From positions 1 to 26,080 of IMG/VR virus record IMGVR_UViG_3300027710_000118: a DNA stretch of 26,080 bases; one strand, given 5' to 3'. The DNA comes from a virus. Below the pieces are notes generated by a model. It ran no database searches and was not told the origin of the DNA. It saw nothing but the letters and a program-made list of their open reading frames with translations. Below are positions 1 to 24,359 of the stretch, one piece after another; position 1 is the stretch's first letter, and the number at the start of each line of letters is the position of its first letter. A program made the position numbers and the translations under genes.

Positions 1-1013
1 CTTTTCTCTATAAACCTAGATCCGCCATTATCAAGAATTTTCTTTTTATAAACTACTTTCTTTGTAGTCTTATAATTGAAATACATTAACGTACACGTGT
101 CTCTTGAAAATACACTATTCTCATAAAATTGAGCAACATTATAATAATCATACCAACCTTGACTATACTGAGTTATCTCTTGCAACTGCTCTTTAGTCAA
201 ACTTTGGTCTATCTTCATCAACTCTGTTATCGGCAAAGTTTTAATCTCTCCCCAATAAAAACAATCTCTGAAATAAGGGTCTTCAGTATAACTATAAACC
301 ACATTCGCAGGATCAACATAAGATATTTTAATTCCTGCTCCTTGAAGAAATTCATGTTTAGCAATAGAAATACCAAGTACTGTAGCATCATAATCAAGTC
401 TTTTACGAACCTCATCATAATGGTTTTCATCAAACATTGTATTGATAGCCTCTTCTTCGGCAATCTCAATAGCAGGCTTGTAGTTTAATTGCATATACAA
501 TGATAATTCCTCATCATTGTTAGGTAACTTTTCAGGGTCCATTATAAATGGATTTGCACCCGATAGCTCTTGTATTTTAGTTAAAGCTTCTTTACCAACC
601 ATTTGAGATTCTACTAACTCTTGATGCTTGTTTCTTTTTGCTTGAGACATTGCATCTTGAGAATATGCTTTAACTTTAAAAAGTCTATTTGACATTCCAT
701 TTACGATAATGTCAACAAACTTTGGTATTACAGGAACAGGTGTCCAATCTAAATTTAGATATGATAAGTCTCCATCAATAGCTAATTCATTCTTATATTT
801 AGCAACAGACTGCTCGCCTCTCGCATAAAGTCTTAATCTATGGAACTCTCTCCATTGACCATAATATCTACAATTGCTTCCATCTTTTCTAAACCACTCA
901 TATTGAATAGCTTGACCTACTTGTAACCCAAATTGTTGAGAAGCTTTAACCGCATCAGTAGCTAACTGACTCGGAAAGGCTGACGATGTTATATCTATTA
1001 CTACGTTTTTCAT
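1..1013 (-). CDS. Portal protein, N-terminal part (C-terminus beyond window)
   Basis: Translating the minus strand from the ATG at 1013 gives an open frame of 337 codons that runs off the left edge. It begins MKNVVIDITSSAFPSQ and includes stretches such as YYGQWREFHRLRLYARGEQ and DWTPVPVIPKFVDIIVNG. These have the arrangement of tailed-phage portal proteins: an N-terminal helical part, then a Trp-Pro-containing strand leading into 'P.F.d.ivng...r'. A portal forms the dodecameric ring at one capsid vertex through which DNA is pumped. The start overlaps the terminase stop as ATGA, and portal directly after large terminase is the usual phage order. No motif proves the assignment; it rests on family resemblance and position. 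Confidence 0.75.
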   Translation of the reverse strand, partial: MKNVVIDITSSAFPSQLATDAVKASQQFGLQVGQAIQYEWFRKDGSNCRYYGQWREFHRLRLYARGEQSVAKYKNELAIDGDLSYLNLDWTPVPVIPKFVDIIVNGMSNRLFKVKAYSQDAMSQAKRNKHQELVESQMVGKEALTKIQELSGANPFIMDPEKLPNNDEELSLYMQLNYKPAIEIAEEEAINTMFDENHYDEVRKRLDYDATVLGISIAKHEFLQGAGIKISYVDPANVVYSYTEDPYFRDCFYWGEIKTLPITELMKIDQSLTKEQLQEITQYSQGWYDYYNVAQFYENSVFSRDTCTLMYFNYKTTKKVVYKKKILDNGGSRFIEK

Positions 1014-4000
1014 GTAATTATTTGACTTGTTGTTCCTTCATTCGAATACCTTGCGAAGTTAACAATAATTTTTGAATCTTTTTTCTCGGGCAAATATAAA
1101 TGCTTTTGATTGGCCATAATAGCCAATCCTGAACTAATAGAAGCATCAAATTTTGTCCTGTCGTTTATGTCAAACTTTGCCCAATCCTCTAATGTTCTTA
1201 TGAATGGCATAGTTCCCATTTCATCAGAATCTCTATAAGCACCCGCCAAATCAAATCCAACATATCTCTCTATGTAAGACTCGATTGCAGAAGCGTGAGA
1301 CTGCTTTACATCTTCAGATGAGTTTGGAATACCCCCAAGTTCTCTCTCTGTCTTTGTTAGTTTATTGTATTGTTTATCAGGTCTATTCAAACAATAATTC
1401 CTATACCCTCTATTTTTAAAATGATACAACAACCTAGGTTTGTTGTTCTCTATAAGAATTGGCATACCATAAAACACACAAGCCATTAATACCTCCTCAA
1501 AGAATATCTCTGCTGTTTGAGGTCTTGCTATGTACTCAAGAAAAAACTCGTTTACAGGAGCTTCATCCATGTGAAATTTAGTAAGACCATGAAGTGAACC
1601 ATTAGACCCTCTACCTCCAACTACTGCGGATATATCATAAGAGTCACAACCAAAAGAACCTAAGTGTTCATTGCCGGGATACTTAGATCCATTTCGTACA
1701 TGAACATTATTTTGAAGGTGCTTTGCAGGTGTCCAACTTACCAAGAACCTACCCCTTGAATCAGGGGTGAATATAACTTTAGTATCTTTAGCTCCATCTC
1801 TCCAATGAAACGAACCTCTTGTTAAAAAATGTTCTTTAACCAAACTATCGTTATAATCAATCTGCTGATATATCTTTGTAAGGTTGAACAAAGATTGTTT
1901 GCTCTCATCTCTAAACGCATGTGATGTTGTTCTAGGGAACTGACGATAAAATTCATTTAAAGCATCAGAATCGCTTTTTAAAGAATCAACCTCTGCTTCC
2001 CAATACTCAACAGCTCCATTTTTTATCATCGTACCATCAACTCCCTTTACAGGCGTCTCCGGTTTGTAAAACACAGGCATACCATAGATATCTATAAAAC
2101 CTTCCATGTTCCACTCCATAGGAATAAACAAGCCGTATAGACCACTTTTGGTTTGACCATTAGCATTACGACTTCCTACCATTGAATCTTCATATAGGTC
2201 TTTGTAGTTTTGACCTCCTTTTGATAATGCATTTGAGGTCGAACCCATCATACACTTTCCAATAATCTTACTACCTAATCTAAGACAAGTTTTGGTAACT
2301 CGCCAATTGTTTTGAATATTATTTGGTTTAACCCATTTTGCACTATTCATACTTACAGTGAAGTCCGAAAGAATTAATTTTCTTTCATCATCATTATCTG
2401 CATCAACTTGAATACCTACATATTCTCCTTTGTCAAGATACTCTACAGATACTTTATTTCGCCTACCTGTAGTTATTGGTTCGTAATCTTCAAACGATTT
2501 CTTTTTTGTTATTAATGGTATTCTTGATAATTCTCCCGATAAACTTATTCTATAAACTTCTGTATTATAATTCGATTTATAATTTTGTACATTTCCACAA
2601 CTTATTCCACAAGAAAGAGCTAATATTCTTATTTGTTCTATTAAATCTTTTCTGCTCATTCCAATAGAAATTATATTCTTTTTTTTATCAGAGTATCCAT
2701 CTGTCTCAATCAATCCTGCTAACAATTGAAGTCTTGATTCAATAGAAGATTTCATATAGCTATCAGGTATGTGTTTATTATTATAAACTCCAATGTCTCG
2801 TAATTGAGAATTTATTCCTTTAAATGCAAATTCAATAATTTTAGCACAGTCTGATTTCTTTAATTCAAAAGGAATGTTTTTCATTTGAGCAATCATTCCT
2901 AAATACTCTAATATTTCAGGTTCTTCTTCTTTATTTACAAGTATTGTAAAAGATGATGATCTGCCATCTCCAAGCCATAAGCCTAAAAGATATGGAGGCA
3001 TTCCTTCAAATTTATCTGACATTTCAATTCCCTTAGAAACAACCCTTGTTAGGTGCTGTTTAACAAAAGATGATTTACCTAAATATTCTTTAGGTGTCAT
3101 TATAACTTCTTCGTGCCTTTTGCTTTTTTTTCTTGAGTTAAATATATACCTGTTAAATACTAATCTATGGTTTTCTGTTACAATATAATCTTGTCCGTAA
3201 GGTTGTTTAACTAAATATCTATCAGTTTCACCTGAAACTTTTTTCATTACAGTCTTTATTTTACCTCCTTCAACCATAACCCTATCTCCAATATTTATAT
3301 CTTTAATAGGTTTAAATTCAAAATCTTCTGTAAGTATCAATGTATCAGGAGCATAACACTCGTCATGAGCTAAAAATATAAGCTTTTCTCCATCATAGGA
3401 GTTCTCTTCTGTATTCTTCCAATCTATTGATGTGTCCAAACCATCTATGGCATCATTATCTATGTCATACATGTTTTTCTTTGTAATCTTAGATGCCGGT
3501 ACACGGAAAGCCAACTCTGTCTTTGGCTTGTCCATACCATCCATAATTGGTTTAAAGAAGAACGGAAGTCTATTGTTTATAGGAACAACTTTATCAGTAA
3601 ACATCTTCTTAGCATCGGCTCCTGTTTTTGACAAGATACCAATCCTTGCATCTCTTGCAAGTGTCCCTATATTCACACACTCAGACGATGACATAAATGA
3701 AAATCCTGAACGTCTAATCTTTAAGTATATCATTCCAAAACTTCTCTCATCTGCCTTACATGCTTCCCAAAAAATCCAATATATTCTATTAGCTTCACGA
3801 AAGTCAGGGTATCCAATATCTATACTAGCCCATTGAAGGTACATATAATGAGAGCCCGTAATGTAAGTTGGAGTACCATTATTCATAAACCAAAAACCTT
3901 GATCTCTAAAATCAAATTCATTTTCAATGTAATCAACCCATCTGTTTTTAAATTCAGCTGCCATTTCATTCCATTGGAATATAGATTGTATTCTTGAAAG

Positions 4001-4270
4001 TTCTTTAGGGATTGGTTGTCTTTCCCAATACTGTTCAGCTTTTGAATTACTTCTTTTAAAACAATCTTTTGGTGTTTTAGGAAGAGCGATATTAAGTCCT
4101 GATATATTGATTATATCTCCTATCTCTCCTGTCTTTGATATTACTACAACATCATATTGTTCGTTGTATCCATATATCCAAGACTTATTACTGTTTTTCT
4201 TAGTAATAGCATTAGAAGGTATATGGTCCCTTACTATGGTGTAGATATTATTTTGACCTTCTTTCTGCAA
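1010..4270 (-). CDS. terL: Terminase large subunit precursor interrupted by an intein
   Basis: The 1086-residue product is a DNA-packaging motor protein. Host-protein residues 1-304 carry the ATPase: a Walker A-like segment KIRRSGFSFMSSS (about 184-196) and Walker B LIFLAHDE (297-304). Residues 305-642 are an intein (listed separately). Residues 643-1086 continue the ATPase (SAKWVKP) and hold an RNase H-like headful nuclease with likely metal-binding acids D876 (FGCDSYD), E941 (LIENN) and D1042 (KFDAS). Excision would give a 748-residue TerL with AHDE-SAKW joined, close to the DE(A/S)xKW pattern seen in related terminases. The start overlaps the upstream small gene by 23 bases, and the stop overlaps the portal start. 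Until the intein leaves, the Walker B glutamate is not in its proper context, so packaging ATPase activity should depend on splicing. Confidence 0.93.
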   Translation of the reverse strand: MQKEGQNNIYTIVRDHIPSNAITKKNSNKSWIYGYNEQYDVVVISKTGEIGDIINISGLNIALPKTPKDCFKRSNSKAEQYWERQPIPKELSRIQSIFQWNEMAAEFKNRWVDYIENEFDFRDQGFWFMNNGTPTYITGSHYMYLQWASIDIGYPDFREANRIYWIFWEACKADERSFGMIYLKIRRSGFSFMSSSECVNIGTLARDARIGILSKTGADAKKMFTDKVVPINNRLPFFFKPIMDGMDKPKTELAFRVPASKITKKNMYDIDNDAIDGLDTSIDWKNTEENSYDGEKLIFLAHDECYAPDTLILTEDFEFKPIKDINIGDRVMVEGGKIKTVMKKVSGETDRYLVKQPYGQDYIVTENHRLVFNRYIFNSRKKSKRHEEVIMTPKEYLGKSSFVKQHLTRVVSKGIEMSDKFEGMPPYLLGLWLGDGRSSSFTILVNKEEEPEILEYLGMIAQMKNIPFELKKSDCAKIIEFAFKGINSQLRDIGVYNNKHIPDSYMKSSIESRLQLLAGLIETDGYSDKKKNIISIGMSRKDLIEQIRILALSCGISCGNVQNYKSNYNTEVYRISLSGELSRIPLITKKKSFEDYEPITTGRRNKVSVEYLDKGEYVGIQVDADNDDERKLILSDFTVSMNSAKWVKPNNIQNNWRVTKTCLRLGSKIIGKCMMGSTSNALSKGGQNYKDLYEDSMVGSRNANGQTKSGLYGLFIPMEWNMEGFIDIYGMPVFYKPETPVKGVDGTMIKNGAVEYWEAEVDSLKSDSDALNEFYRQFPRTTSHAFRDESKQSLFNLTKIYQQIDYNDSLVKEHFLTRGSFHWRDGAKDTKVIFTPDSRGRFLVSWTPAKHLQNNVHVRNGSKYPGNEHLGSFGCDSYDISAVVGGRGSNGSLHGLTKFHMDEAPVNEFFLEYIARPQTAEIFFEEVLMACVFYGMPILIENNKPRLLYHFKNRGYRNYCLNRPDKQYNKLTKTERELGGIPNSSEDVKQSHASAIESYIERYVGFDLAGAYRDSDEMGTMPFIRTLEDWAKFDINDRTKFDASISSGLAIMANQKHLYLPEKKDSKIIVNFARYSNEGTTSQIIT
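2345..3358 (-). mobile_element. Intein with LAGLIDADG homing endonuclease, inside TerL Walker B
   Basis: This in-frame segment encodes 338 residues, Cys305 to Asn642 of the TerL precursor. Block A starts CYAPDTLILTED; block B has the TxxH motif in VTENH (residues 365-368). Two LAGLIDADG helices are visible, LLGLWLGDG (428-436) and LLAGLIETDG (516-525), with catalytic acids likely D435 and D524. The C-terminal blocks read YVGIQVDAD and LILSDFTVSMN, followed by Ser643 as the +1 nucleophile. The penultimate residue is Met641, where most inteins have His. The family self-excises from the precursor, and the endonuclease cuts intein-less alleles to spread. Insertion directly after the catalytic Asp-Glu pair places it in a highly conserved target site. 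Confidence 0.92.
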
Positions 4271-6090: not shown

Positions 6091-9000
6091 TAGTTTGTGA
6101 TATTAAATAAATTAGGCGTAACACTATCAGCAATATTTGTTATTTGAACTGTAAAAAATAAATATAATGTATTTGCAGTATTGTAAGGAGTATTATTATA
6201 AACATTTGTCAAAACAGTAGCTTCATCAGTAATTGTGTTTGTAGCAGAAAATATCATTCCGTATAAATTACCGCCATTTAACATAAAGTTTCTTTTTAAA
6301 ATTAATGCATTTGCAGTAGTGGTTAACATACCAGCTAATGTAACTGCTCCGGTAAGTGTGTTTGAAGTATTTATTTTTATTCTTAATGTAGAACTTATAG
6401 CAGTTGCTTTATTTGCACCATAGATAACCTTCATAACATCTGAAGTATTAAAAGTACCACCAACAATAGTTGCAGTAGCTACAATAGTTTCAGCTACTGT
6501 TCCTGTGTGAGCAGTTGTATTTGTTTGTATAAACTTATAAGGTGTATAACTTAAAGCATTTTGTTTTAAAGCTAATCCTGTATTAACCGCGTTTACAGTT
6601 GGATATTTAGTTGCACTTGCTGTTAAATCAGTTTGTTTATTAGCGACATCTTCAGGAGTGTATCCAATTATTGTTGGTATTGAAGCTGTCTTCCACTGCG
6701 CAGGAGAAACTGTGTTGTCGTACCAAAGTGTATCTTTTAAAGTAGGACTTTGTGCTTGTACATTATGTAGCTCTTGGAGCTCATATCCGTTTTGTACCCT
6801 TACATACATTCTTCCCGCTGCTCCATTACTTGCTGTTGTTACAACCCCAAGGTAAACTAAGTGATTAGGCGCAAAAGGTTTAACGTTTGTAATTGTTCCT
6901 GCTGTTGCACCAAGATATACAGCATCTCCATCTGCCCAAGTTGATGTTGGAAGAATACTTAACCCATCCAACAAACCTTGCATCATTATAAGTCCCTTTT
7001 GATTAGCTGCAATAGATGTAGATAATACTAATCCAACTGTTTGAGCAGATGTTGCATCCGATGTGTTAAACGCCCTCTTAACCGTCATCCTATCTCCTGT
7101 TCCACTAAAAGCAAACACAGGCATTCCCTTGGTTAAAGTTACAGAGTCATCATTTGTAACATAAGAAAACAAACTATTTGGAGCAGTTCCAATTACTTGA
7201 AAGTGATTATTTGTTGAATTATACACACAAAGCATTTCGCCTCCTGAAATAATATCACCACCAATTAAAACTCCATCATTATTTCTATACAAAGGTATCG
7301 CACCTAATGAGTTAATATTTAATGTAGCCCCCGTAGTATTTCCGTTTGTGAATCTTATCAAATAAGCATCAGCATCATTATAAGCAGCAACACCTGTAAC
7401 TGTTGCCGTATATGTATCTGTACCTGCAGCGGTTGCGTGAGGTATTCCGCCCCCTGACGCACTTGCATTTAATGTTCCTCCTGATAAAGTTAATCCTGTT
7501 CCAATAGTTATCTCCTCCATAACACCTGTGCCTGCTGTGCTTCTACCAATAAGTTTATTAGTAGCCATAGATGTAGATATATCAGGTGTTGCACCTCCTG
7601 ATGAGGTTATAGGAGATGTTGCTGTAACAGATGTAACACCTCCGCTAGGAATATCTGAAAGTAAAGCTACTGTACCACTTGCATTTTGAAGTGTTTGAAT
7701 ATTTGTACCTGTAATAGTACTAGGCGATTTTAAGTAAAGACTACTACCACCGGCTCCTATAAATCCAATATCATTATTTGTAGATATTGATATTTGTTTA
7801 CCTGTAAAAGTGTCCGCAAGATAAATATAGTTATTTGCTAAAACTACTGAAAGGGGTGACACTCCAATATTCTGAAGAAATATTACGTCTGTAGTAGTAT
7901 TACCTGCAGTTGTAACCTGCTGCAATGTTGGTATTGTTATACTTGGAAATGTAGCAAATGTACCATCTCCTCTAATATATTGAGATATTGTACCCGTTGG
8001 ATAAGGATAATAAGTTGTAGTATCTAATGCAAATGTTCCTACAGCAGTCATCTTTACAAACGGTGTTCCTGTGGTCCATGTAGGGTAATTTAATGCTCCC
8101 CAAGTACCAACTGTTGGTATTGTGGGCTTGTTTAATATTTGATTATTACCACTTGTCGCATTCCAATCAGATGGTTGTTGCACAAGCGGATAACCTGCAC
8201 CAAGATTTGTCCAATATAATGTATTGGTTGGTAACAATGAATCATTACTAGCGATACATCTGTAAATATTACCACTATAATAAACAACGTCTCCAATAAC
8301 ATATTGATTACCTGTTGCAGAAATGTGATCTGTTGTAAATGGTAGCGCAGTAGTTATAGACCCGGTAGGAATATCAGAAAGTAAAGCTATCGTGCCTGAT
8401 GCGTCAGGAAATTGCCAAGACCTTGTGTTCGTTAGCAAATCTGATCTTAAATTTCCATCACCTGCAGCAGTTTGGAATCCTATACTTGCATCTTGATAAA
8501 TATAAACATAATTTATTGTATCAGTTATTTGTAGACCACTAAGGGGGTGATATAAAAAATTATAATTAGCATCATTGTTATCACTAATCCCAAAATCATA
8601 TCCATCTGAATATAAGTTTCCTGATATTATGCCCCCAACAGTTATTGTATCTGTAGTTATTGCACCTGCTGTTGTAACTTGCTGAAGTGTTTGAGAACCT
8701 CCGCCTGTAGTAACAGAACCATCTGCCATTAAATACTGTAGGTTTGTACCTCCTGTTTTAATAAATGAAGTTGCAGTTACATTACCTGTTAGATTGATAT
8801 TATTTATTGCAGTATTACCAACAGATAATACATCGCCCAATCCCGGTGTTGTTGTTGCAGGAGCATTTACCCATCTTATACCTGATGCTGTTTTTGAAAG
8901 AAATTGACCTGTTGTTCCAATGCCTGTGGTATCGTCTTGTATATTGCCCGGTATTATTCTTGTTGAAGTAATATTTCCAACAAGAGTTATACTCTGAGTA

Positions 9001-13693: not shown

Positions 13694-13804
13694 TTATTTC
13701 TTTTTTGTAGGTGGCTTTGATACATTTCCTTTTAGAAACTTCATCTTGCCATCTAATGATTTTTTAGACTCGTATTGTTTTGCTTTCGCAATTACTTTTT
13801 TCAT
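13694..13804 (-). CDS. Tiny basic protein (36 aa)
   Basis: The frame MKKVIAKAKQYESKKSLDGK ... NVSKPPTKKK fills the space exactly between two genes: its ATG overlaps the upstream stop (TAATG at 13806-13802), and its stop lies one base before the next ATG. Fifteen or so of 36 residues are basic. Function unknown. Confidence 0.6.
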   Translation of the reverse strand: MKKVIAKAKQYESKKSLDGKMKFLKGNVSKPPTKKK

Positions 13805-14094
13805 TAGTATTTTCCTTTACGATTACTAGGATTACTTGTGGTTGAACCTCCCGGTCCTGCCCATAAGTTTTTACATGCCCAATATCTTGGGGTTAATTTA
13901 TCATTAGCTGTATCACAACTATGTCTTGCTTTAAAACTTCTTCGAGCAGCAGGACTATAGTTGTTGCCATAGCCTTTAGCTCCGAAGTGAAGGAGTTTTT
14001 CTTCTCCTCCACTACAAGCTTTTACCATCTTTTTCTTTCCCGGTCTGTCCGAAGCAGTCGGACGGTTGCATTGCATTTTAGACTTGTCAGCCAT
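13804..14094 (-). CDS. Small basic conserved phage protein (YGNNYS...PRYWACKNLW type)
   Basis: The 96-residue protein contains FGAKGYGNNYSPAARRSFKA, RHSCDTANDKLTPRYWACK and NLWAGPGGS. This arrangement (aromatic-Gly-rich 'DYG.NYSd.AR.SF.ARH.C..A.dK.tpRYWacknLW') is widespread in marine and Bacteroidota phages, often next to structural genes, with unknown function. Cys8, Cys27, and the two Cys near the C-terminus with His could form a zinc site. The stop overlaps the next start (TAATG). Confidence 0.78.
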   Translation of the reverse strand: MADKSKMQCNRPTASDRPGKKKMVKACSGGEEKLLHFGAKGYGNNYSPAARRSFKARHSCDTANDKLTPRYWACKNLWAGPGGSTTSNPSNRKGKY

Positions 14095-14097
14095 GAC

Positions 14098-14235
14098 CTA
14101 TTGTCTAAATGCTCTTGTATTATGTCCCGGAAATTTATCAACTTCAACTGTCTCTACAACAGGAGTCTCATCTACTACAACTGTTGTTTCTACAACGATA
14201 GTCTCTTCTACAGTGTCTTCTTTTTTCTTTGCCAT
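14098..14235 (-). CDS. Acidic tiny protein (45 aa)
   Basis: The product begins MAKKKEDTVEETIVVETTVV and ends VDKFPGHNTRAFRQ. Unlike its basic neighbours it is acidic, with Val/Thr/Glu repeats encoded by near-repetitive codons, and a conserved-looking PGHNTRAFRQ tail. The gap to the next gene is 3 bases. Function unknown; the tail may be the functional part, as it is the only non-repetitive segment. Confidence 0.65.
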   Translation of the reverse strand: MAKKKEDTVEETIVVETTVVVDETPVVETVEVDKFPGHNTRAFRQ

Positions 14236-14240
14236 TTTTA

Positions 14241-14405
14241 TTAACAGTTTTTTTTCATTTTTATTCCTCCTGATTTAGCACCTGACATTACTTTGCTAGT
14301 AGCGCCTTTGCTATTTTGGTTGATGGATAATCTTTTGTTACCACCTGTTGTACTTGGTGCTTGCAAACGAGATGAACCCGGCAAGTTTGGAGTGTTTTTT
14401 GCCAT
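14241..14405 (-). CDS. Tiny protein with N-terminal NLPGSSRLQAP tag (54 aa)
   Basis: The frame starts MAKNTPNLPGSSRLQAPSTT and ends AKSGGIKMKKNC. The N-terminal segment matches the next upstream product (NLPASSKLKAP), though the rest differs. It is Ser/Gly/Lys-rich and probably unstructured. The ATG overlaps the upstream stop (TAATG at 14407-14403). Function unknown. Confidence 0.65.
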   Translation of the reverse strand: MAKNTPNLPGSSRLQAPSTTGGNKRLSINQNSKGATSKVMSGAKSGGIKMKKNC

Positions 14406-14545
14406 TATTTCTTCTTTGTTACTGATTTAACCATTCCTTTCATAGCTCCTACAACAGCTCCTTTTGCTGCTCCTTTCATAGCTCCTTTAACTGCAGGTGC
14501 TTTCAATTTTGATGATGCCGGTAAATTGTTTGTTGACTTTTTCAT
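14405..14545 (-). CDS. Tiny protein with NLPASSKLKAP tag and Gly/Ala/Lys helix (46 aa)
   Basis: The frame reads MKKSTNNLPASSKLKAPAVK followed by the repeat GAMKGAAKGAVVGAMKG and a basic end VKSVTKKK. The middle could form an amphipathic, membrane- or DNA-contacting helix. The tag matches the product of 14241-14405. It is coupled to that gene by TAATG. Function unknown. Confidence 0.65.
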   Translation of the reverse strand: MKKSTNNLPASSKLKAPAVKGAMKGAAKGAVVGAMKGMVKSVTKKK

Positions 14546-14564
14546 TTTGTTTGATATTTAGTTG

Positions 14565-14822
14565 TTATTTTTTTACTCTTTTTACAATCGTTTCAGTTGT
14601 TGGTCTGTGATATTGCTTTCCTAATGTGTTTTTTAAAGATGCCAATCCTTGAAGTTTATCAGCTCCTGTTTGAGTTCTTCTGCCTTCTTTTGAATTGGAT
14701 TTTCTTTCCTCTCTCTTAGCCTTCAACCTAGCAACTGATGCTTTTTGAAGTTCATCCAATATATTCACAGCTGTTGTAACAATTGGTGTTCGTGCTAATG
14801 GTGTATCTCTATTTTCTGCCAT
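14565..14822 (-). CDS. Basic protein with variant RDTPLA tag (85 aa)
   Basis: The product starts MAENRDTPLARTPIVTTAVN: the RPDTPLA tag of its neighbours with the first Pro missing. A helix follows (ILDELQKASVARLKAKREER), then a Lys/Arg-rich stretch ending TETIVKRVKK. It is strongly basic and probably binds nucleic acid. It lies 2 bases after the preceding stop. Function unknown. Confidence 0.72.
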   Translation of the reverse strand: MAENRDTPLARTPIVTTAVNILDELQKASVARLKAKREERKSNSKEGRRTQTGADKLQGLASLKNTLGKQYHRPTTETIVKRVKK

Positions 14823-14824
14823 GA

Positions 14825-15232
14825 TTATTTTGTATCTCTTAAAGATTCTCCTTTATTTGTTCGTCCTGTTGAACAACTTCCTTTAGATTCTCCTCTTTTA
14901 CAAGCCTTCCCTATTTCTAAACCTTCAACAGGAGCATCAGGTTTTTTTGCTTCTTTCTTGTACCATCTTTGGTACTCAGCTACGGTCATTCCTTTATTAG
15001 AAGCAGCTTTATTAATTTCAGCATCTCTTCTATTAGTAGCTTCTGTACTTACAGAATCTTTATACTGAAGAAAGCGTTCCATACCGCCTTTTTTAATAAG
15101 TTCTTTTTTCTTATTTCCTTTTTCTTCTATAGTCATTTTTTGCCAAGTTTTTGGCTTGATTGTATCCTGTACAAATCTTGGCTCAGGACTAGTTGCCAAT
15201 GGCGTGTCGGGTCTTCTTTGATTGATAGGCAT
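14825..15232 (-). CDS. Basic protein with RPDTPLA tag (135 aa)
   Basis: The N-terminus is MPINQRRPDTPLATSPEPRF. The body is helical and basic (KMTIEEKGNKKKELIKKGG, AEYQRWYKKEAKK), and the C-terminus holds two Cys in GKACKRGESKGSCSTG. The 'GKxC' theme also occurs in the products of 13165-13341 and 13354-13692. Its start shares a base with the upstream stop (TAATG at 15234-15230). Function unknown; a virion-internal or DNA-associated role is inferred from charge and position. Confidence 0.75.
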   Translation of the reverse strand: MPINQRRPDTPLATSPEPRFVQDTIKPKTWQKMTIEEKGNKKKELIKKGGMERFLQYKDSVSTEATNRRDAEINKAASNKGMTVAEYQRWYKKEAKKPDAPVEGLEIGKACKRGESKGSCSTGRTNKGESLRDTK

Positions 15233-15504
15233 TATTTCTTCTTTTTAGGATTTAAGTTTCTTTTAGTAGCTTCTTCATATCCACGCATCCCTTGTTTGGT
15301 TTTCATATCGTAAGCCGGCAAAATAGACTTTCCTTCTACTGCTCTCTCAAAACCTTGTTTGTAGTATGAACTATCTGTAGCTGTTGGAGTATATGGTTTA
15401 TCTTTGAAGAAACCTCTTGTGGTTGTCTTCATATTGCTATAATTCGGAGTCGGGCTATCTGCTAATGGCGTATCCGGTCTTTTTGTTTTTGGTTTTTCTT
15501 GCAT
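15232..15504 (-). CDS. Basic protein with RPDTPLA tag (90 aa)
   Basis: The N-terminus is MQEKPKTKRPDTPLADSPTP. The rest includes YTPTATDSSYYKQGFERAVE and MKTKQGMRGYEEATKRNLNP, ending KKKK. The segment 'SxYYKQGFERAVEGK' resembles 'SADYRSGFKSGLKGK' in the product of 16164-16445, so these two are paralogues beyond the tag, and both start MQEKPK. Function unknown. Confidence 0.75.
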   Translation of the reverse strand: MQEKPKTKRPDTPLADSPTPNYSNMKTTTRGFFKDKPYTPTATDSSYYKQGFERAVEGKSILPAYDMKTKQGMRGYEEATKRNLNPKKKK

Positions 15505-15506
15505 GA

Positions 15507-15719
15507 CTATTGTTGTTGAGGTTGTTGTTGAGGTTGTTGTTTTGCTATCTTAGCAGCACCCATCTCAGCTACTTGTTTTATAGCTGCATCAGCAGTAGCT
15601 TGAAATTTATTCATAGGCATTGATCCCAATTCATTACTAGGTTGCAATCCTGAGCTAACAGGCATTGGTTCAGGTGTAGCCGCTAATGGAGTGTCAGGTC
15701 TGTTTATACTTGATTTCAT
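15507..15719 (-). CDS. RPDTPLA-tagged protein with Gln/Pro tail (70 aa)
   Basis: The N-terminus is MKSSINRPDTPLAATPEPMP. A helix lies at about 38-62 (NKFQATADAAIKQVAEMGAA), and the C-terminus is a QQP repeat (KQQPQQQPQQQ), encoded by near-perfect TTGTTGTTGAGG-type repeats on the plus strand, prone to slippage. It is less basic than its neighbours. Function unknown. Confidence 0.72.
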   Translation of the reverse strand: MKSSINRPDTPLAATPEPMPVSSGLQPSNELGSMPMNKFQATADAAIKQVAEMGAAKIAKQQPQQQPQQQ

Positions 15720-15730
15720 ATTATTTAGTT

Positions 15731-16162
15731 TTATGCTAATCTACCCTTTTTTTGTGATACTAAACCTTTTTTATCAGAATCACTTAATTCTTTTTTGCTT
15801 CCTGATGTTACGTTGTAATAGTTTGCATTTTTGTTTCTACGTTGCATTGTATCAGTACTATCTTTTACAAACTCTCTTCTTAAATTTTCTCTGCTTCCTT
15901 GAGACCCTGTAGTAGATGTTTTTATAATCTTATTTTTACTATCTACAATAACAGAGTTACTTCTTTTGTCATTAGCAGGAATAAATTTTTTCTCGTATGG
16001 CTTAGCTGTAGCTCTACCATTTCTTACATCTAATCCCGATGGAGTTTTACCTACCATCTCATTAGTATCTTGAGTCTTTTTTGCTTTATCATATCTTGGT
16101 GTTAAAGAAAATTCAGCCTCAGGTGTAGCAGCTAACGGAGTGTCGGGTCTGTTTGTTTTCAT
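15731..16162 (-). CDS. Basic RPDTPLA-tagged protein (143 aa)
   Basis: I choose the ATG at 16162 (MKTNRPDTPLAATPEAEFSL) because it lies one base after the upstream stop and puts the tag near the N-terminus, as in the paralogues; an in-frame ATG at 16231 would overlap the upstream gene by 68 bases. The protein is polar, with segments TPSGLDVRNGRATAKPYEKK and SRENLRREFVKDSTDTMQRR, and a basic end VSQKKGRLA. Likely disordered. Function unknown. Confidence 0.74.
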   Translation of the reverse strand: MKTNRPDTPLAATPEAEFSLTPRYDKAKKTQDTNEMVGKTPSGLDVRNGRATAKPYEKKFIPANDKRSNSVIVDSKNKIIKTSTTGSQGSRENLRREFVKDSTDTMQRRNKNANYYNVTSGSKKELSDSDKKGLVSQKKGRLA

Positions 16163-17169: not shown

Positions 17170-18780
17170 TTATATTTGCTCGTATGAACGAGCCATTGTT
17201 ATAATTGCATTGGTACTCAAGATTGTGGTGGCTACACTCACAGCATTTTGTAATGCTGAACGTGTTACTTTGAGTGGGTCAATAACACCCATCTTAATCA
17301 AGTCACCGTACTCTTTTGTTTTCAGATTATACCCATGACCTAGCTCTATGCCAACAGGATACACGTCTGATGGCTTCAATCCCGCGTTTGCCAAGATTTG
17401 TTGGAACGGAGCCATCAATGCATCTCTGATAATTACAACAGCCGTATTGTGCTCAGGACTTTTATCCTCATCAATCTGTAAAGATGCACTCTCCTCAAGC
17501 AACGCTTTCCCTGCACCGGGTAATATACCCTCCTCTAGTGCTGATCTTACTGCGCAAACAGCGTCATCAACCCTGTCATATAGTTCTTTTTGCTCCAAGT
17601 CGGTCTGTCCACCAACAAATATAACACCTACTCCACCTGTTAGTGACGCTATACGCTCCAATAAGAAGTCCTTATCAGCCTTTTTAGTGGCACTTTTGTA
17701 GTTATCACGTAGTTGTACTACCCTTTCGTCAATTAAGTCCTGTTTTGACCTTGTATTTGACTTTATGATTATGGTTTTGTCGTTACTAACGATGATTTTT
17801 GAAGCATGACCCAAGTCACCGAAGTTAATAATGCTCAAATCGTCCCCTGTTTTCTCACTGAAGTAGGTAGCACCCAAGCTTACAGCTATATCATGCATCA
17901 ATTCGTGTTGCTTGTATCCGAAACTAGGCGGTGCAACCGCACATATCTTCACATTCCCCTTCATAACGTTAGCCGCCAACGTGTTTATCACAGGAGCAGC
18001 ACAAGGAGCTATAATCAACAGCTTCTTTCCTTCGCTAATAATTGGTTTCAATATGCTCTCTATCTGCAATATGTTCGATACCTCCATATCAGCTACCAAT
18101 ACCATAACGTCCTCAAACACACACTCGTCTTTCTTCTGATCATTGATGAACATCGGACTCAAATACCCTCTGTCAAACTTCAATCCCATAGTGGTCTCTG
18201 CATACGTCTCATCATTTTGGCTTTTCTCCACCGTTACAATCCCTGTCTTGCCAACATCTTTATAAACCTCAGCAATTATCCTCCCAATCTCTTTGTCATT
18301 GTTCGCAGAGATTGAAGCTACATCAATAAGCATACTGTTAGTAACCTTCTTACTCTTCTTCTTTAGATTCTCCACAATCTTGTCGCTTATCTCCACCATG
18401 TTGCGAAGCACCTCCGTTCTGTTATGGTGTGGCTTGATATGCTCAAGTCCTCCCAATACCAATCCTTCAGTAAGTACAATAGCAGTTGTAGTACCATCTC
18501 CCGCAGAAGTAGCAGTCTTATCAGCAGCCTCCTTCATCATACGAACCGCAAGGTTCTCCGAAGGGTCAAGTAAGTAAATTGATTTTGCAACAGTGACACC
18601 ATCTTTAGTAACCGTGATGCCATGAGTATGTTCAGGAGATTCAATAAGTACAGTATTACCATTTGGACCTAATGTACTCTTTACAGCTTTCGACATTTTT
18701 ACAACGCCACTAACTAATTTCTTTCTTCCCTCTTCTCCAAAACATAAATCTTTAGGAGAGTAACCTTGATTGTCTAACAT
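17170..18780 (-). CDS. groEL: Chaperonin GroEL
   Basis: Starting at the ATG at 18780 gives 536 residues, MLDNQGYSPKDLCFGEEGRK, in line with GroEL N-termini; an in-frame Met at 18903 would add 41 unrelated residues that cover the promoter. ATP-binding motif TSAGDGTTTAIVL has D95; the second nucleotide motif EEGILPGAGKA is at 416-426, and D406 (VDDAV) matches the catalytic Asp. The apical domain is complete. The C-terminus ends NAIITMARSYEQI, without the GGM repeat tail. It refolds proteins in the cytoplasm with GroES. Full-length phage GroELs are uncommon but known. Confidence 0.95.
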   Translation of the reverse strand: MLDNQGYSPKDLCFGEEGRKKLVSGVVKMSKAVKSTLGPNGNTVLIESPEHTHGITVTKDGVTVAKSIYLLDPSENLAVRMMKEAADKTATSAGDGTTTAIVLTEGLVLGGLEHIKPHHNRTEVLRNMVEISDKIVENLKKKSKKVTNSMLIDVASISANNDKEIGRIIAEVYKDVGKTGIVTVEKSQNDETYAETTMGLKFDRGYLSPMFINDQKKDECVFEDVMVLVADMEVSNILQIESILKPIISEGKKLLIIAPCAAPVINTLAANVMKGNVKICAVAPPSFGYKQHELMHDIAVSLGATYFSEKTGDDLSIINFGDLGHASKIIVSNDKTIIIKSNTRSKQDLIDERVVQLRDNYKSATKKADKDFLLERIASLTGGVGVIFVGGQTDLEQKELYDRVDDAVCAVRSALEEGILPGAGKALLEESASLQIDEDKSPEHNTAVVIIRDALMAPFQQILANAGLKPSDVYPVGIELGHGYNLKTKEYGDLIKMGVIDPLKVTRSALQNAVSVATTILSTNAIITMARSYEQI

Positions 18781-19405: not shown

Positions 19406-19549
19406 GTGATTTAGATAATAGCAGAGTTTGGGTAGTACCTACATTTTGCGATAAGAACCCAAATCAGAAAGTCGATTTTATTTCGCATGGGGGGCTATCG
19501 TTTCCGAAAACGCTTTCCCGATTTTTTGGCGTTTTGGTATTGGTTGCAT

Positions 19550-19641
19550 GGTTCCATTGGTTCCGGTTCCGTTTCTATTGGTTCACCTTTGCCGGTTCCG
19601 GTTCACCGGTTCCATTGGTTCCGGTTCCATTGGTTCCGTTT
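19550..19641. repeat. GGTTCC repeat array in the control region
   Basis: Within about 92 bases GGTTCC occurs eight times, plus two GGTTCA variants, mostly as GGTTCCATT or GGTTCCGGTTCC blocks. One 21-base block recurs exactly at 19550-19570 and 19608-19628 (58-base period). The region has higher GC than its surroundings. It is within the gene-poor stretch 19376-19976 between leftward and rightward blocks, so it could be a replication origin, protein-binding array or recombination site. The long frames through it are low-complexity and unlikely to be genes. Confidence 0.75.
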
Positions 19642-19894
19642 CCATTACTTATATATTAATCAAAACTTTGTTCGGTTCCTGTAATGCTCGAGACTTGTCC
19701 CGTTTAAACTTTGTACTATTTATAAGGCTTTGCAGAGTTTAATACTTTGCTTTGTCCCTATCTTATATTTTTATCCTATAATATAGTATAATATGAACAT
19801 TTAAAAAACCCTTATAAACAAAGGCATTTATATATAATTTTAGGCAAAATCAAAAAAAAGTTACATAAATATTTTTTTTATCCGATATTTATTC

Positions 19895-19902
19895 TATATT
19901 TG
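19895..19902 (+). promoter_or_regulatory. Candidate rightward promoter -7 element (TATATTTG)
   Basis: TATATTTG on the plus strand matches TAnnTTTG and lies 74 bases before the first rightward gene (ATG 19977). No clear TTG is at -33; T-rich sequence is there instead. It probably drives the first early gene and perhaps the RNA region beyond. The rest of 19642-19894 shows no other feature I can support. Confidence 0.5.
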
Positions 19903-19976: not shown

Positions 19977-20255
19977 ATGGAAACAAAAGTAACAATTCAA
20001 AATGTAAGAAACGTAAACAATGCAAAAAAAGAGCAAAACAAAACAATCGGAGGTATTATTTCAAATATCTTAACACTAGACAAAAATAGTTTAGAGAATA
20101 AGGAAGATAAAAGTATTATTGATTTTTTAGTTAAGGCAAAAAAAGATAGTAATACATATAAATTGTTATGCGATAACGTTAAACTACACTACAAAACAAA
20201 TTTACCTAATCAATATGCAGTACTACAAGCAGTAAAAGTTATATTAAATAAGTAG
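19977..20255 (+). CDS. Small basic hypothetical protein (92 aa), first rightward gene
   Basis: I start at the ATG at 19977 (METKVTIQNVRNVNNAKKEQ), preceded by the leader TTAAAATC that recurs before other rightward genes; a TTG at 19947 would extend the frame. The product is Lys/Asn-rich and helical, with IIDFLVKAKKDSNTYKLLCD and QYAVLQAVKVILNK. No motif is recognised. Its position next to the control region suggests an early protein. Confidence 0.72.
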   Translation: METKVTIQNVRNVNNAKKEQNKTIGGIISNILTLDKNSLENKEDKSIIDFLVKAKKDSNTYKLLCDNVKLHYKTNLPNQYAVLQAVKVILNK

Positions 20256-20390
20256 TAATTATCTTACATTTTCAGAGTGCCTACTTTGTTGAGAATAGAC
20301 AAAGGTAAAAATCGAATTTTTGCACTCTACAAAAGTGGTTTTATTGTGTTACACTAGATTAACACAAAATTTATAAAAGTATCTTAAATT

Positions 20391-20461
20391 GTAGCTCCTA
20401 GAGTGCAAATGTAGAAACGTAAACTTTTATAAATAGTATTAAATGTAGCTCCTAGAGTGCA
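20391..20461 (+). repeat. Direct repeat GTAGCTCCTAGAGTGCA with an inverted partner
   Basis: GTAGCTCCTAGAGTGCA occurs at 20391-20407 and 20445-20461, 54 bases apart, each preceded by similar TAAAT sequence. TGCACTCTA at 20321-20329 is the exact complement of the 3' part of both, and AGAGTGC occurs once more at 20274. The first copy is in the loop of the 20369-20434 stem. The copies could compete for pairing with 20321-20329. Confidence 0.7.
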
Positions 20462-20740
20462 TTTAGTGACTGTTATTTGAAATACTGACAAAACTTTTTA
20501 TTCACTACCTTAAAAAAGTAGTGGTATAAACATATCCACTAAGTTAACTTTTTAGGTGAGAGTGTAGACCCGCGGTAAAACCGAAGGCACTCAACTATTC
20601 AATTAAGGCGAAGCATTCCTATATCCAAACGACTATCGATGTTTGGACGCAAAATTTATAGGTAATTGAATAGTTATATGAAAGCGAAAGATAGTAAAAA
20701 ATGTACGCCTATTTTATATAGGCAATAGACTGACAAACCA

Positions 20741-20769
20741 AGCCATAACAATATAGTTGTGGCTTTTTT
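20741..20769 (+). terminator. Rightward intrinsic terminator of the noncoding RNA
   Basis: AGCCATAAC (20741-20749) pairs with GTTGTGGCT (20756-20764) over 9 bp with one G-U and a 6-base loop, followed by a T-tract to 20769. This ends the structured region cleanly before the tRNA-like element. Confidence 0.85.
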
Positions 20770-20792
20770 ATATATAACTAAATGAATGAGTT

Positions 20793-20829
20793 CCTTGTAT
20801 GCTTGTGGCGAAATCCCATAAAAACAAGG
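20793..20829 (+). other. Stem-loop with 5-bp stem and 7-base loop
   Basis: CCTTGT (20793-20798) pairs with ACAAGG (20824-20829). Inside it TGTGG (20804-20808) and CCATA (20816-20820) pair over 5 bp (one G-U), leaving the 7-base loop CGAAATC, the dimensions of an anticodon arm. It lies 11 bases before the tRNA-like element. Function unknown. Confidence 0.45.
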
Positions 20830-20839
20830 TGGAATATAT

Positions 20840-20902
20840 AACGTATTTGGTGGAGTAACAATATACTATCCAACATAGTGCAGTTCGATTCTGCAATACG
20901 TT
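20840..20902 (+). other. tRNA-like element with acceptor and T arm only
   Basis: AACGTAT (20840-20846) pairs perfectly with ATACGTT (20896-20902), a 7-bp acceptor stem, and TGCAG-TTCGATT-CTGCA (20879-20895) is a textbook T arm with a 7-base loop, directly abutting it. The 32 bases between (about 9 fewer than in a normal tRNA) do not give D and anticodon arms; alternatives are TTGG/CCAA with AGTA/TACT, or ACTAT/ATAGT. CCA is not encoded. It may be a degraded tRNA or a tRNA mimic. It is 21 bases before the ATG at 20924. Confidence 0.5.
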
Positions 20903-20923
20903 CTAAACTTAAATTAAAATCAA

Positions 20924-21154
20924 ATGGACTATTTAACATTTAAACAACTGTATCCATATAGAGATACCAAACGCAAAATCATAAACGATTTGAAAAGCGA
21001 TGTAAAAGAATTGGAATACCGTATTAATGCAGTGAAGCCACAAATTGAGAATAAAGGCTTTGCTCATTTGTATGGCGAAGTGTATAGAGTTAAAGACTTA
21101 AGAGAATTAGAAAGTGAATTGGAATATACAAACAAATTAATAACCGAAATTTAA
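20924..21154 (+). CDS. Small coiled-coil protein (76 aa)
   Basis: The product begins MDYLTFKQLYPYRDTKRKII and is mostly helical with a coiled-coil pattern (VKELEYRINAVKPQIE; LRELESELEYTNKLITEI). The start ATCAAATGGAC is shared with the next gene. No motif is recognised. It opens the compact series of tiny rightward genes. Confidence 0.7.
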   Translation: MDYLTFKQLYPYRDTKRKIINDLKSDVKELEYRINAVKPQIENKGFAHLYGEVYRVKDLRELESELEYTNKLITEI

Positions 21155-22136: not shown

Positions 22137-22334
22137 ATGAACGAATTAAAAGATTACATCGAGAAAGAATTGAAATCACTCGACAGAGGTATTGTTGCTA
22201 CTCCGGATACGAGAGAGCATTTAGAAAATTTTGCCAAGGCAAACAAAGGTTCAATGGACATCATACTAATGCAGATGTCTATGAACTATGGGTATAAAAT
22301 TGCATTAGAAAACCTTAAAGAATTAATATCATGA
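22137..22334 (+). CDS. Small helical protein before the amidoligase (65 aa)
   Basis: The product reads MNELKDYIEKELKSLDRGIV ... MDIILMQMSMNYGYKIALEN ... LKELIS. It follows a leader AATTAAAATC. The ATGA overlap at 22331-22334 couples it to the amidoligase gene, so it could be an accessory subunit. No motif is recognised. Confidence 0.65.
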   Translation: MNELKDYIEKELKSLDRGIVATPDTREHLENFAKANKGSMDIILMQMSMNYGYKIALENLKELIS

Positions 22335-23530
22335 ACTATTCAGAAGTAAAAAAGCTATTCGAGTTATTCGATGGCAGTAAACATCAAGTAAAGAGAGCAA
22401 TAAACTCAATCAATGAAGAGTATGTAACCATTGATGAGATGCTAAACGAAATGTACTTCCAACATGGGAGTTATTACTATTCGTGTGATGACTATGTAAC
22501 TACACACGATGGCGATGTGCTTTATCGAGACGATGCATTTTGGTGCGAGGGTAATGAAGAGTACTACCATACAGATCAAATGGTGCGTGTGTACGAGGGT
22601 AGAAACGAGGGTTGGTATAGTCAGAGTTATGTTGACAACAATGATGAGTTCGCATACTTCGATGGTGAGTACTACGATGACTGTGCTAGAGACAGACACG
22701 ACATTGTGTATGTAGAGGACACAGACGAATGGGCTTATCGAGACAATGTATACTACCATGAGGACAGAGGTTACCACTCTTATCCTGATGATACCGAGGA
22801 GTATGTTCGTGGATACCATAATGGTAGCTATCGAACTTTGTACTTTAGCAATAGACCAAAATACAAGATTGGCTTTGAGATAGAGAAAGAAGATGAGGAT
22901 GTACGTAACTCAGTAGACATTGATAGCTTTGAGTCTTATACCAACTACCAATGGCGTAAGGAGAAAGATGGTAGCTTATGTGATGACTCAGGTTATGAGC
23001 TAATCAGTCCTACCTTTGAGTTCAATATCAATAAGATATTCGAGCATATCGAGAGCAATGATGAGTTAGTCAAGCATATCAATGCGAGACATACCAAGTC
23101 ATGTGGTGGGCATATCCATTTGTCAGAAGATGGACTGTCGGGCGATCAGTTGTTCGAGAAGATCAAGGGTTATACTCCATTGTTCTATGCCTTGTACTAC
23201 GGCAGAGTAGATAAGAACTACTGCAAAGGTAAGAAGAACGATGACTTGCAGAAAGATAATGAGAAGTACCAAGCTATCAAGATACATCACGATAGGGTTG
23301 AGTTTCGTATCATCAGTGCAGTACCGAGTGTCAACACATTGAAGTGGAGAAGTAAGTTACTTATGATGGCTATACAGAACCCTACTGATGACGTTATCAA
23401 AGCGTACTACAATGTAGATACCAAGTTCACCAAGTTACTCAAGCAAGTGTATAATGAGGATAAGCTTCAAGACTTGAAGCATAGGTTCATAAACTACACA
23501 CAACAATTCGAAGGATTAGATATTAAATAA
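22331..23530 (+). CDS. Phage amidoligase (glutamine-synthetase/GCS-like fold)
   Basis: The C-terminal 220 residues show the amidoligase motifs: KIGFEIEKED (179-188), EKDGSL (211-216), GYELISP (221-227), CGGHIHLS (258-265), LYYGRVDKNYCK (288-299) and VEFRIISA (323-330). The family forms amide bonds between a carboxylate and an amine with ATP, as glutamate-cysteine ligase does. The N-terminal part (about 45-170) is a Tyr/Asp/Glu-rich repeat, with YYYSCDDYV, FWCEGNEEYYH, YFDGEYYDDC and WAYRDNVYYHEDRGYH, that resembles the zinc-ribbon repeats of such phage proteins but with most Cys lost. The next gene is a class II glutamine amidotransferase, a partnership reported for phage amidoligases. The substrate is unknown; a peptide or cell-wall component is plausible. 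Confidence 0.82.
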   Translation: MNYSEVKKLFELFDGSKHQVKRAINSINEEYVTIDEMLNEMYFQHGSYYYSCDDYVTTHDGDVLYRDDAFWCEGNEEYYHTDQMVRVYEGRNEGWYSQSYVDNNDEFAYFDGEYYDDCARDRHDIVYVEDTDEWAYRDNVYYHEDRGYHSYPDDTEEYVRGYHNGSYRTLYFSNRPKYKIGFEIEKEDEDVRNSVDIDSFESYTNYQWRKEKDGSLCDDSGYELISPTFEFNINKIFEHIESNDELVKHINARHTKSCGGHIHLSEDGLSGDQLFEKIKGYTPLFYALYYGRVDKNYCKGKKNDDLQKDNEKYQAIKIHHDRVEFRIISAVPSVNTLKWRSKLLMMAIQNPTDDVIKAYYNVDTKFTKLLKQVYNEDKLQDLKHRFINYTQQFEGLDIK

Positions 23531-23549
23531 CAATTAAAAATTAAAAATC

Positions 23550-24359
23550 ATGTGCATAGCAATTTTAAACACAAAGAAAGCAGGTAGATTACCAAAGTCC
23601 CACATCAAGAACTCATGGGACAATAACGAGATGGGTTCGGGACTATTGTGGACTAACAATGGCAAACTTCACGTATTCAAAACGTACGTATACGATGAGT
23701 ACATTGACAAGTACAATGAGTTACGAGATGACAAAGATGTCGGCAGTATAGTGCTTCACTTCCGTATAGCCACTAGTGGTTACAAGGGTGAGCATAACCT
23801 TCACCCATTCTTAGTCAATGACAACTTAGGGTTTGTACACAATGGTGTCATCAAGGGATTGGGTAACAAGGAGTTCTCCGATACCTATGAGTTCAACGAT
23901 ATGCTCAAGAAATTCAAGCATGACTTCACTACGTGTGACATGAGTAAGTACTTCATATCAGAGTACATCGGGTATAGTAAGTTAGTGTTCTTAGCTGCTG
24001 ACGATAAGCATACTATCATCAACGAAGAATTGGGCAAATGGGTTGATGGCAATTGGTACTCAAACGATTCGTACAAGCAGTACAATGACTATTCATACTA
24101 CGGCAACACAAAAGTGTCAAAGTCAAAAAAAGACACAGTCTGCGACACCTTAGACGATTGGGATTTAGAGTGGGGATATGGTGGCGTGGACTACGTAAGT
24201 GCTGATGACGAGTGGACAATGTATGAGTACATCTGCGACATCTACGGACTTGATCCCGATGTAGAAGCAACATGGGAAGACATTGAGTACTACATGGTGC
24301 TGCACAATGTTCAAGACATAACGGGATTGTATAAAATATTAACCGACGATATATCATAA
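23550..24359 (+). CDS. Class II glutamine amidotransferase (Ntn hydrolase)
   Basis: The product starts MCIAILN, with Cys2 as N-terminal nucleophile after Met removal. Family motifs follow in order: GSGLLWTNNG (29-38), LHFRIATSGYKG (69-80), HNLHPF (82-87), FVHNGVI (95-101), SDTYEF (110-115). These enzymes release ammonia from glutamine, usually for a partner that makes an amide. The partner here is likely the amidoligase encoded 20 bases upstream. The C-terminal 80 residues (e.g. DDWDLEWGYGGVDYV) are acidic and unlike known GATase domains. Preceded by the leader AATTAAAAATC. Confidence 0.88.
   Translation: MCIAILNTKKAGRLPKSHIKNSWDNNEMGSGLLWTNNGKLHVFKTYVYDEYIDKYNELRDDKDVGSIVLHFRIATSGYKGEHNLHPFLVNDNLGFVHNGVIKGLGNKEFSDTYEFNDMLKKFKHDFTTCDMSKYFISEYIGYSKLVFLAADDKHTIINEELGKWVDGNWYSNDSYKQYNDYSYYGNTKVSKSKKDTVCDTLDDWDLEWGYGGVDYVSADDEWTMYEYICDIYGLDPDVEATWEDIEYYMVLHNVQDITGLYKILTDDIS

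Follow-up and report, generated by a model that had tools for sequence, protein, structure and literature searches.

The stretch of DNA analysed here (the window) is the 26,080-base virus record IMGVR_UViG_3300027710_000118. Its late-type genes lie on the minus strand, and the plus-strand block that starts with a small basic gene, ORF1, is taken here as the early region. Directly downstream of ORF1, the first gene of this block, lies a structured noncoding RNA, followed by a tRNA-like element (TLS) that begins about 70 nt past an intrinsic terminator and stops about 20 nt short of the next ATG, at 20924 (Table 1). A phage GroEL gene is a neighbour of this locus. The terminase encoded in the window shares 80% identity with its counterpart in MW202828.1 (Manatee Spring podovirus) and 50% with those of the Flavobacterium elemoviruses; given these identities and the phage GroEL, the window phage is most likely a podovirus of Flavobacteriia. 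The RNA-carrying group consists of freshwater phages that probably infect Flavobacteria.

Table 1. Features of the RNA locus in the window
Feature	Position	Strand	Remarks
Putative early promoter of ORF1 and the RNA, -7 box TATATTTG	19895-19902	+	Flavobacterium/Bacteroidetes-type
ORF1	19977-20255	+	First early gene; 92-aa basic protein, pI 9.6, predicted all-helical
5' three-way junction	20274-20328	+	P1, 7 bp, AGAGUGC/GCACUCU (20274-20280 x 20322-20328); P2 20283-20306; P3 20307-20321
Rest of 5' domain	20344-20482	+	Hairpin 20344-20367, 8 bp, UUGUGUUA/UAACACAA; 12-bp stem AUUUAUAAAAGU/ACUUUUAUAAAU (20369-20380 x 20423-20434) enclosing repeat hairpin 1 (20389-20408); repeat hairpin 2 (20441-20464); loop region UCCUAGA in both repeat hairpins
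Junction motif GUUAUUUGAAAUACUGACAAAAC	20472-20494	+	Between the two modules; similar motif in L024, L033, L060, L022 and L056
3' domain	20529-20700	+	Hairpins 20537-20558 and 20560-20592; 13-bp stem AACUAUUCAAUUA/UAAUUGAAUAGUU (20593-20605 x 20663-20675); inner stem 20618-20630/20641-20662; pseudoknot of six pairs, 20632-20637 x 20690-20695
Hairpin GCCUAUUUUAUAUAGGC	20707-20723	+	
Intrinsic terminator AAGCCAUAAC-N6-GUUGUGGCUU plus UUUU	20740-20770	+	Hairpin 20740-20765 plus T-run
Hairpin with 3' arm AGGUGGAAU	20791-20834	+	Directly 5' of the TLS
tRNA-like element (TLS)	20840-20906	+	Acceptor stem ACGUAUU/AAUACGU; D-like hairpin with UGG; T arm GCAG-UUCGAUU-CUGC; 3' tail UCUA

An earlier, sequence-only reading had proposed that the interval 20274-20770 is a structured RNA that holds no gene and ends in its own terminator. 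The interval folds to -126.8 kcal/mol, compared with -92.6 +/- 5.3 kcal/mol for shuffled sequences (z -6.45; none of 100 as good), and from the ORF1 stop to 20923 the plus strand contains no ATG-started ORF of at least 20 aa. The coordinates proposed were correct, the four long stems (7, 8, 12 and 13 bp) are all present at those lengths, the terminator and the nearby tRNA-like element are found where Table 1 lists them, and covariation in homologous regions, the check that the reading had set, proved to be strong (see below). The region is a genuine, previously uncatalogued structured RNA of 500-650 bases. What has to be revised is its end at 20770, given that the conserved hairpin and the TLS (~20790-20906) form part of the cassette. 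A long-range pairing in the minimum free energy fold, between 20275-20281 and GGCACUC at 20585-20592, is rejected; covariation speaks instead for two local structures, the three-way junction and the hairpin 20560-20592.

Several other features of the genome are recorded in their own right. The terminase large subunit gene (1010-4270, minus strand) is broken by a Hint/LAGLIDADG (intein-like) insert. Adjacent amidoligase-like and class-II glutamine amidotransferase-like genes (22331-24359) are conserved across the group, and in sister phages an amidoligase-like gene (motif CGGHI) occupies the RNA locus itself. Irregular GGTTCC/GGTTCCATT repeats lie at 19540-19660, between the divergent gene blocks and upstream of ORF1, and GGTTGCCGTT-type repeats take the equivalent position in two relatives (L010 and L011); these are possible origin or regulatory repeats. 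The sole gene called by ARAGORN in the window, a tRNA-SeC at 6889-6976, lies inside a 1098-aa reading frame and is taken as spurious.

The locus in related phages

Relatives were collected by a scan with a 399-aa protein, which yielded L010 and L011, and through an alignment of phage GroELs, which yielded 47 loci; L002 also has ORF1 and the 5' portion of the RNA. Twelve distinct phages (the window, L002/L039, L010/L014, L011/L015, L021, L022, L024, L033, L048, L055, L056 and L060) share the layout promoter, basic ORF1, structured noncoding RNA, (terminator), TLS and next early gene; the L024 contig ends inside the RNA. The RNA spans 450-700 nt and folds below shuffles in all 12 phages (z -2.1 to -6.6, 25 shuffles each). 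About 18 sister phages carry one gene of ~215 aa and one of ~290-305 aa in place of the RNA, with no confident Pfam match for either protein, and L054 is different again.

The ORF1 protein is basic in 12 of 12 phages (pI 9.6-10.1), with identities to the window copy that range from 18 to 92%. Its AlphaFold model is all-helical (mean pLDDT 72) and has no fold match in the PDB, and searches of Pfam and PHROGs gave weak matches only, with no confident family. Position and size suggest that all twelve proteins belong to one family, with weak sequence support between the most distant types.

In 9 of the 12 phages, the 160 nt upstream of ORF1 contain the Bacteroidetes-type promoter consensus, TANNTTTG; the window has no such box between ORF1 and the RNA. 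The RNA would be transcribed from the promoter upstream of ORF1 and co-transcribed with this gene. The earlier suggestion of a phage regulatory or structural RNA expressed early fits as far as position is concerned (first cistron of the plus-strand block, with a promoter-like box upstream), but the RNA probably does not form a transcription unit of its own, and it is a mosaic of two modules, not one rigid family.

In 1.2 kb, two terminator-like sites are found, one of them the terminator of the window, compared with 0.3 expected in shuffles. Equivalents are present in L011, L022, L055, L056 and L060, and in L002 and L033 the U-run sits on the pre-TLS hairpin; inspection of L010, L021 and L048 recognised no terminator, though the RNA and the TLS are present. 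A terminator downstream of the RNA is therefore recognised in 8 of 11 phages and not in every member.

Conserved pairing and exchange of modules

The architecture of the three-way junction is kept with different paired sequences in L002, L024, L048, L056 and L060. P1 reads ACGGGUG/CACCCGU in L024, AGGGGCU/AGCCCCU in L048 and GCCCGUA/UACGGGC in L060 and L056, each junction having a second and a third hairpin of its own; P1 and P3 are also kept in L021 and L055, where P2 is not clear. For single sequences the signal is modest, shuffles as good being found in 1/200 cases for the window, 0/200 for L048, 2/200 for L056, 4/200 for L060 and 9/200 for L024. The rest of the 5' domain (20344-20482) is 95% identical in L002 and about 70% identical in L024, the latter with compensatory changes (CUC/GAG to UUC/GAA and GUG/CAC to GCG/CGC); the UCCUAGA repeats form hairpins in the window, L002 and L024.

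The 3' domain was aligned for a small set of four sequences, the window, L060, L022 and L033. Over 58 pairs, including the pseudoknot, the downstream hairpin and the T arm, 99.1% of cells are paired, and 14 pairs have changes on both sides, a number reached in 0 of 500 shuffles. When the structure is slid by 1-3 columns, pairing falls to 36-43%, with 0-3 pairs changed on both sides, a large contrast in spite of the few sequences. RNAalifold also paired columns 28-37 and 359-369 of alignment A6; this pairing was weak and U-rich and was omitted. A covariance model of the 3' domain (R1) matches only L022, L060 and L033 among 52 sources; because it finds no further members, the remaining phages are read as carrying different 3' modules, not diverged copies detectable by R1.

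The TLS is present in all 11 phages whose contig reaches its site, 10 of them with a recognisable T-loop and one with a variant. Across these 11 phages, 95.9% of cells are paired, and 8 of 11 pairs have changed on either side of the helix at once (26 cells, 0/500 shuffles). The acceptor stem is followed by a tail of the form N-C-(U/A)-A, with the C and the final A invariant, and TGGA.T within the AGGUGGAAU arm of the preceding hairpin is likewise invariant. The acceptor stem and a T arm with a UUCRA loop are those of a tRNA, and both covary. Only 16-32 nt separate the acceptor stem from the T arm, and ARAGORN finds no tRNA at the site. As there is no anticodon arm and the element is short of full length, it is filed as tRNA-like and not as a tRNA. 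Scored against the Rfam tRNA model, the L010 element reaches 34.2 bits (gathering score 29) and those of L011 and L002 about 16. A strict TLS descriptor matched only RNA-carrying phages and none of the 18 sister phages that lack the RNA. In L048 (about 2083-2132 in upstream-of-GroEL coordinates), the acceptor and T stems are kept and the T-loop is replaced by AGCGAAA, a loop that L021, L024, L048 and L055 also have in their three-way junction hairpin.

Comparison of the parts of the cassette across phages points to exchange. Phages with similar ORF1 proteins tend to have similar 5' domains (Mantel rho 0.34, p 0.009), a tendency that does not extend to the 3' domain (rho -0.13, p 0.83). Similarity in the 3' domain goes with similarity at the TLS end (rho 0.55, p 0.004) and is not correlated with similarity in the 5' domain (p 0.78). 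On the basis of these correlations, the cassette behaves as two modules, ORF1 plus 5' RNA and 3' RNA plus TLS, joined near the conserved motif at 20472-20494, an apparent recombination joint. No 5' module and no 3' module is shared by every phage of the group. The co-segregation is broken in L033, which combines an L055-type ORF1 with an unrelated 5' domain, and, given that ORF1 and the 5' domain adjoin, linkage alone could explain it, at least in part. Between the window and L002, the first module is 87-95% identical (5' domain 94.8%, ORF1 86.7%), compared with about 72-73% in the flanks, which points to a recent exchange; high identity of the 5' domain is thus not, on its own, evidence of constraint.

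Hammerheads and tRNA-like elements at cistron borders

One base past the ORF1 stop, L010 has a type I hammerhead (3445-3494) with stems of 5, 5 and 7 bp and an intact core (CUGANGA...GAA...A-U H, with the three stems); the cut is predicted between 3489 and 3490. Its Rfam score of 22.5-22.8 bits is below the gathering score, and 880 Mb of random sequence of the dinucleotide content of the group contained no equally good type I hammerhead. At the equivalent site, 12 nt past the ORF1 stop, L022 carries a second, smaller TLS. The window as a whole has no match to descriptors of hammerhead types I-III, and the 5' end of its RNA has no recognisable cutter, neither hammerhead nor TLS, but only the three-way junction, which contains no CUGANGA/GAAA catalytic core.

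Fifteen sister phages without the RNA (L027-L030, L034-L036, L040, L042, L044, L047, L050 and L057-L059) have early genes separated by type III hammerheads, 1-3 of them per locus, which typically follow a stop codon by 26-38 nt and often precede the next ATG by 20-24 nt; one passes the Rfam threshold. The early operon of these phages is apparently punctuated by ribozymes. Since the TLS occupies the place where these hammerheads sit, we infer that it would be a cutting signal for host tRNA enzymes.

Further candidates were noted elsewhere in the group. In L054, a GroEL-bearing phage, a type I hammerhead (1018-1065, minus strand) overlaps a stop codon about 20 nt before the next gene. The cultured Flavobacterium phage elemoE 6-9C, a possible laboratory system, has a hammerhead-like motif with a CUGAAGA core some 25 nt ahead of its first early gene (L064, about 2098-2155, minus strand; NC_055854.1, about 18,097-18,154). 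The leader of this elemovirus, with a z of -1.1, is no more stably folded than its shuffles, and an analogous RNA is therefore not claimed for it. In L007 (MW202828.1), neither the RNA nor hammerheads were found, and a palindrome, GTGTCGTTAACGACAC, recurs between most early genes (13700-16000), perhaps as an intercistronic signal or operator of its own. A match to the hammerhead descriptor on the minus strand of L002 lies inside the GroEL coding sequence and is taken as a chance match.

Clustered hammerheads that flank single genes have been described in phages, with the proposal that they divide long transcripts into mRNAs of gene length (Perreault et al. 2011; PMC3088659). The relatives of the window phage show exactly such elements, and in L010 the RNA begins with one, whereas the window has a TLS at the corresponding place, beside a long structured RNA. 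Theta ribozymes, found partly in Bacteroidota phages, adjoin phage tRNAs and so combine ribozyme and tRNA processing (PMC10879173). They have an HDV-like fold and process real phage tRNAs, unlike the present TLS, which has no anticodon arm and accompanies a new RNA body. In eukaryotes, a tRNA-like element directly 3' of the noncoding RNA MALAT1 (mascRNA) lets RNase P make the 3' end. The position of the window TLS would allow 3' end formation by RNase P in the same manner; the difference is that the window also has an intrinsic terminator upstream of the TLS.

Known RNAs, competing explanations and possible function

Searches of Rfam with the whole 26-kb window gave no match at the gathering threshold, OLE and 6S included, and only chance-level matches up to E 10; the GOLLD and ROOL models matched neither at the gathering threshold nor when relaxed to E 10 in the window, L010, L011 and L002. 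As no Rfam family matches, the RNA is neither GOLLD nor ROOL, which bears out the doubt of the sequence-only reading about both. At the DNA level, the region has no similarity in 50,697 phage records and 72,556 plasmids, the noncoding RNAs of L022, L021 and L033 and the ORF1 of L055 have no match in phages, and the 3'-domain pattern and the ORF1 profile find nothing in 84,980 bacterial and archaeal genomes. A second match of an exact 18-mer repeat scan, in the 223-kb contig L003, lies in an unrelated context and is taken as coincidental. No report of the RNA was found in a literature search that covered a minority of subscription journals and, among preprints, those in PubMed Central. In the literature searched, the composition, with a partner gene, exchangeable modules and a built-in TLS, is an undescribed variant; in kind, this is a large ornate phage RNA like GOLLD and ROOL.

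The explanation we prefer, with a confidence that is about evenly balanced, is an early trans-acting RNA of ~500 nt that is co-transcribed with ORF1, cut or terminated from the early transcript, and probably assembled into an RNP with the ORF1 protein. Host polymerase would start at the TANNTTTG promoter upstream of ORF1, as the motif suggests, and the transcript would carry ORF1 and then two independently folding RNA modules, the structure of which is established by covariation. Formation of the 3' end would be due to the intrinsic terminator or, where polymerase reads through it, to a host RNase P/Z cut at the TLS, to judge from its anatomy and position, so that the next early mRNA would start near the TLS; a terminated window RNA would not need the TLS, given that the terminator precedes it. 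In two relatives, a cutter at the 5' end may be provided by the hammerhead (L010) or the second TLS (L022). The released RNA would act in trans with the ORF1 protein, most likely bound to the 5' module, as suggested by co-segregation, in some fast-evolving early task, speculatively host takeover or counter-defence. Covariation, the noncoding nature of the RNA, the fixed gene-RNA-TLS order, the 5' processing elements, the hammerheads between early genes of sister phages, the co-segregation of ORF1 with the 5' domain and the basic character of ORF1 all speak for this trans-acting RNA. Arguments against it are the terminator ahead of the TLS in the window, the 5' end there with no recognisable cutter, the adjacency of ORF1 and the 5' domain, the exception of L033, and an ORF1 model of pLDDT 72 that matches no PDB fold.

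The main rival, which we consider unlikely, is cis-acting antitermination. In phage lambda, a small basic protein encoded by the first early gene, N, acts with an adjacent RNA site, nut, and a terminator, and among lambdoid phages N and its nut site are exchanged together. Under this explanation, ORF1 would be the N-like protein and the RNA a large nut/put-like loading site for read-through of the 20740-20770 terminator into the early operon. The parallels are a first early gene for a small, basic, fast-evolving protein, followed by a structured RNA, a strong terminator and early genes on the same strand, and the joint exchange of ORF1 type and 5' RNA type. However, the RNA is about ten times as long as a nut site, three of 11 phages (L010, L021 and L048) have the RNA and the TLS with no recognisable terminator, and in L010 the RNA would be separated from everything 5' of it by the hammerhead that directly follows ORF1.

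That the RNA is just a long structured 3' UTR or intercistronic spacer, with folds that only protect or punctuate the early mRNA and no function in trans, appears distinctly improbable. Co-transcription with ORF1 is likely, and the TLS and hammerheads of the group do occupy intercistronic positions, with the next ATG about 20 nt further on. For punctuation, however, 500 nt of covarying structure with a pseudoknot would be superfluous, given that the sister phages punctuate with 50-nt hammerheads, and between the window and L002 the 5' domain is more conserved than ORF1.

Very doubtful, in our view, is an RNA-only assembly of the GOLLD/ROOL kind, in which a large ornate phage RNA oligomerises and has no role in cis. 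GOLLD is a large structured RNA of phages and prophages, located near tRNAs and known from metagenomes, with a conserved 3' part and a variable 5' part; ROOL is a phage-encoded RNA of about 500-660 nt with many stems and pseudoknots, located near tRNA genes (PMC12286853). The window RNA resembles both as a large phage RNA with many stems, a pseudoknot and a tRNA-like neighbour, with ROOL in its size, and with GOLLD in having a variable 5' and a more conserved 3' part. Apart from the negative covariance-model searches, it differs from GOLLD in being shorter, in its two independently exchanged modules and in its tie to a small basic protein gene and an anticodon-less TLS, and from ROOL in its gene context, the first early cistron, and in a built-in TLS that takes the place of tRNA islands; the lack of a 5' or 3' module shared by all phages of the group also argues against this kind of assembly.

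Chance folding of an AT-rich intergenic region, in which palindromes can yield long perfect stems and whose antisense strands also fold below shuffles, is refuted by compensatory changes far above the shuffled and slid controls, together with the z of -6.45, and retains practically no probability.

Returning to the trans-acting RNA, we tentatively suggest, at clearly less than even confidence, that the locus represents a new kind of RNP cassette. This would be a mosaic early RNA, with a 5' module matched to a cognate small protein, a 3' module that is swapped independently and interchangeable cutters that free it from the early transcript, either a self-cleaving hammerhead or a host-processed TLS, and within one phage lineage the cassette would alternate with a protein-coding module and hammerhead punctuation.

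A large, covariation-supported RNA family absent from Rfam 15 thus joins the few known from phages, such as GOLLD and ROOL. Unlike these two, the RNA has a linked candidate protein partner and built-in processing signals, which makes its function directly testable, and the pairing of ORF1 with the 5' module yields a simple, decisive prediction of cognate binding. The alternation of hammerheads and TLS at cistron borders offers a natural experiment in the cutting of phage early transcripts into functional pieces.
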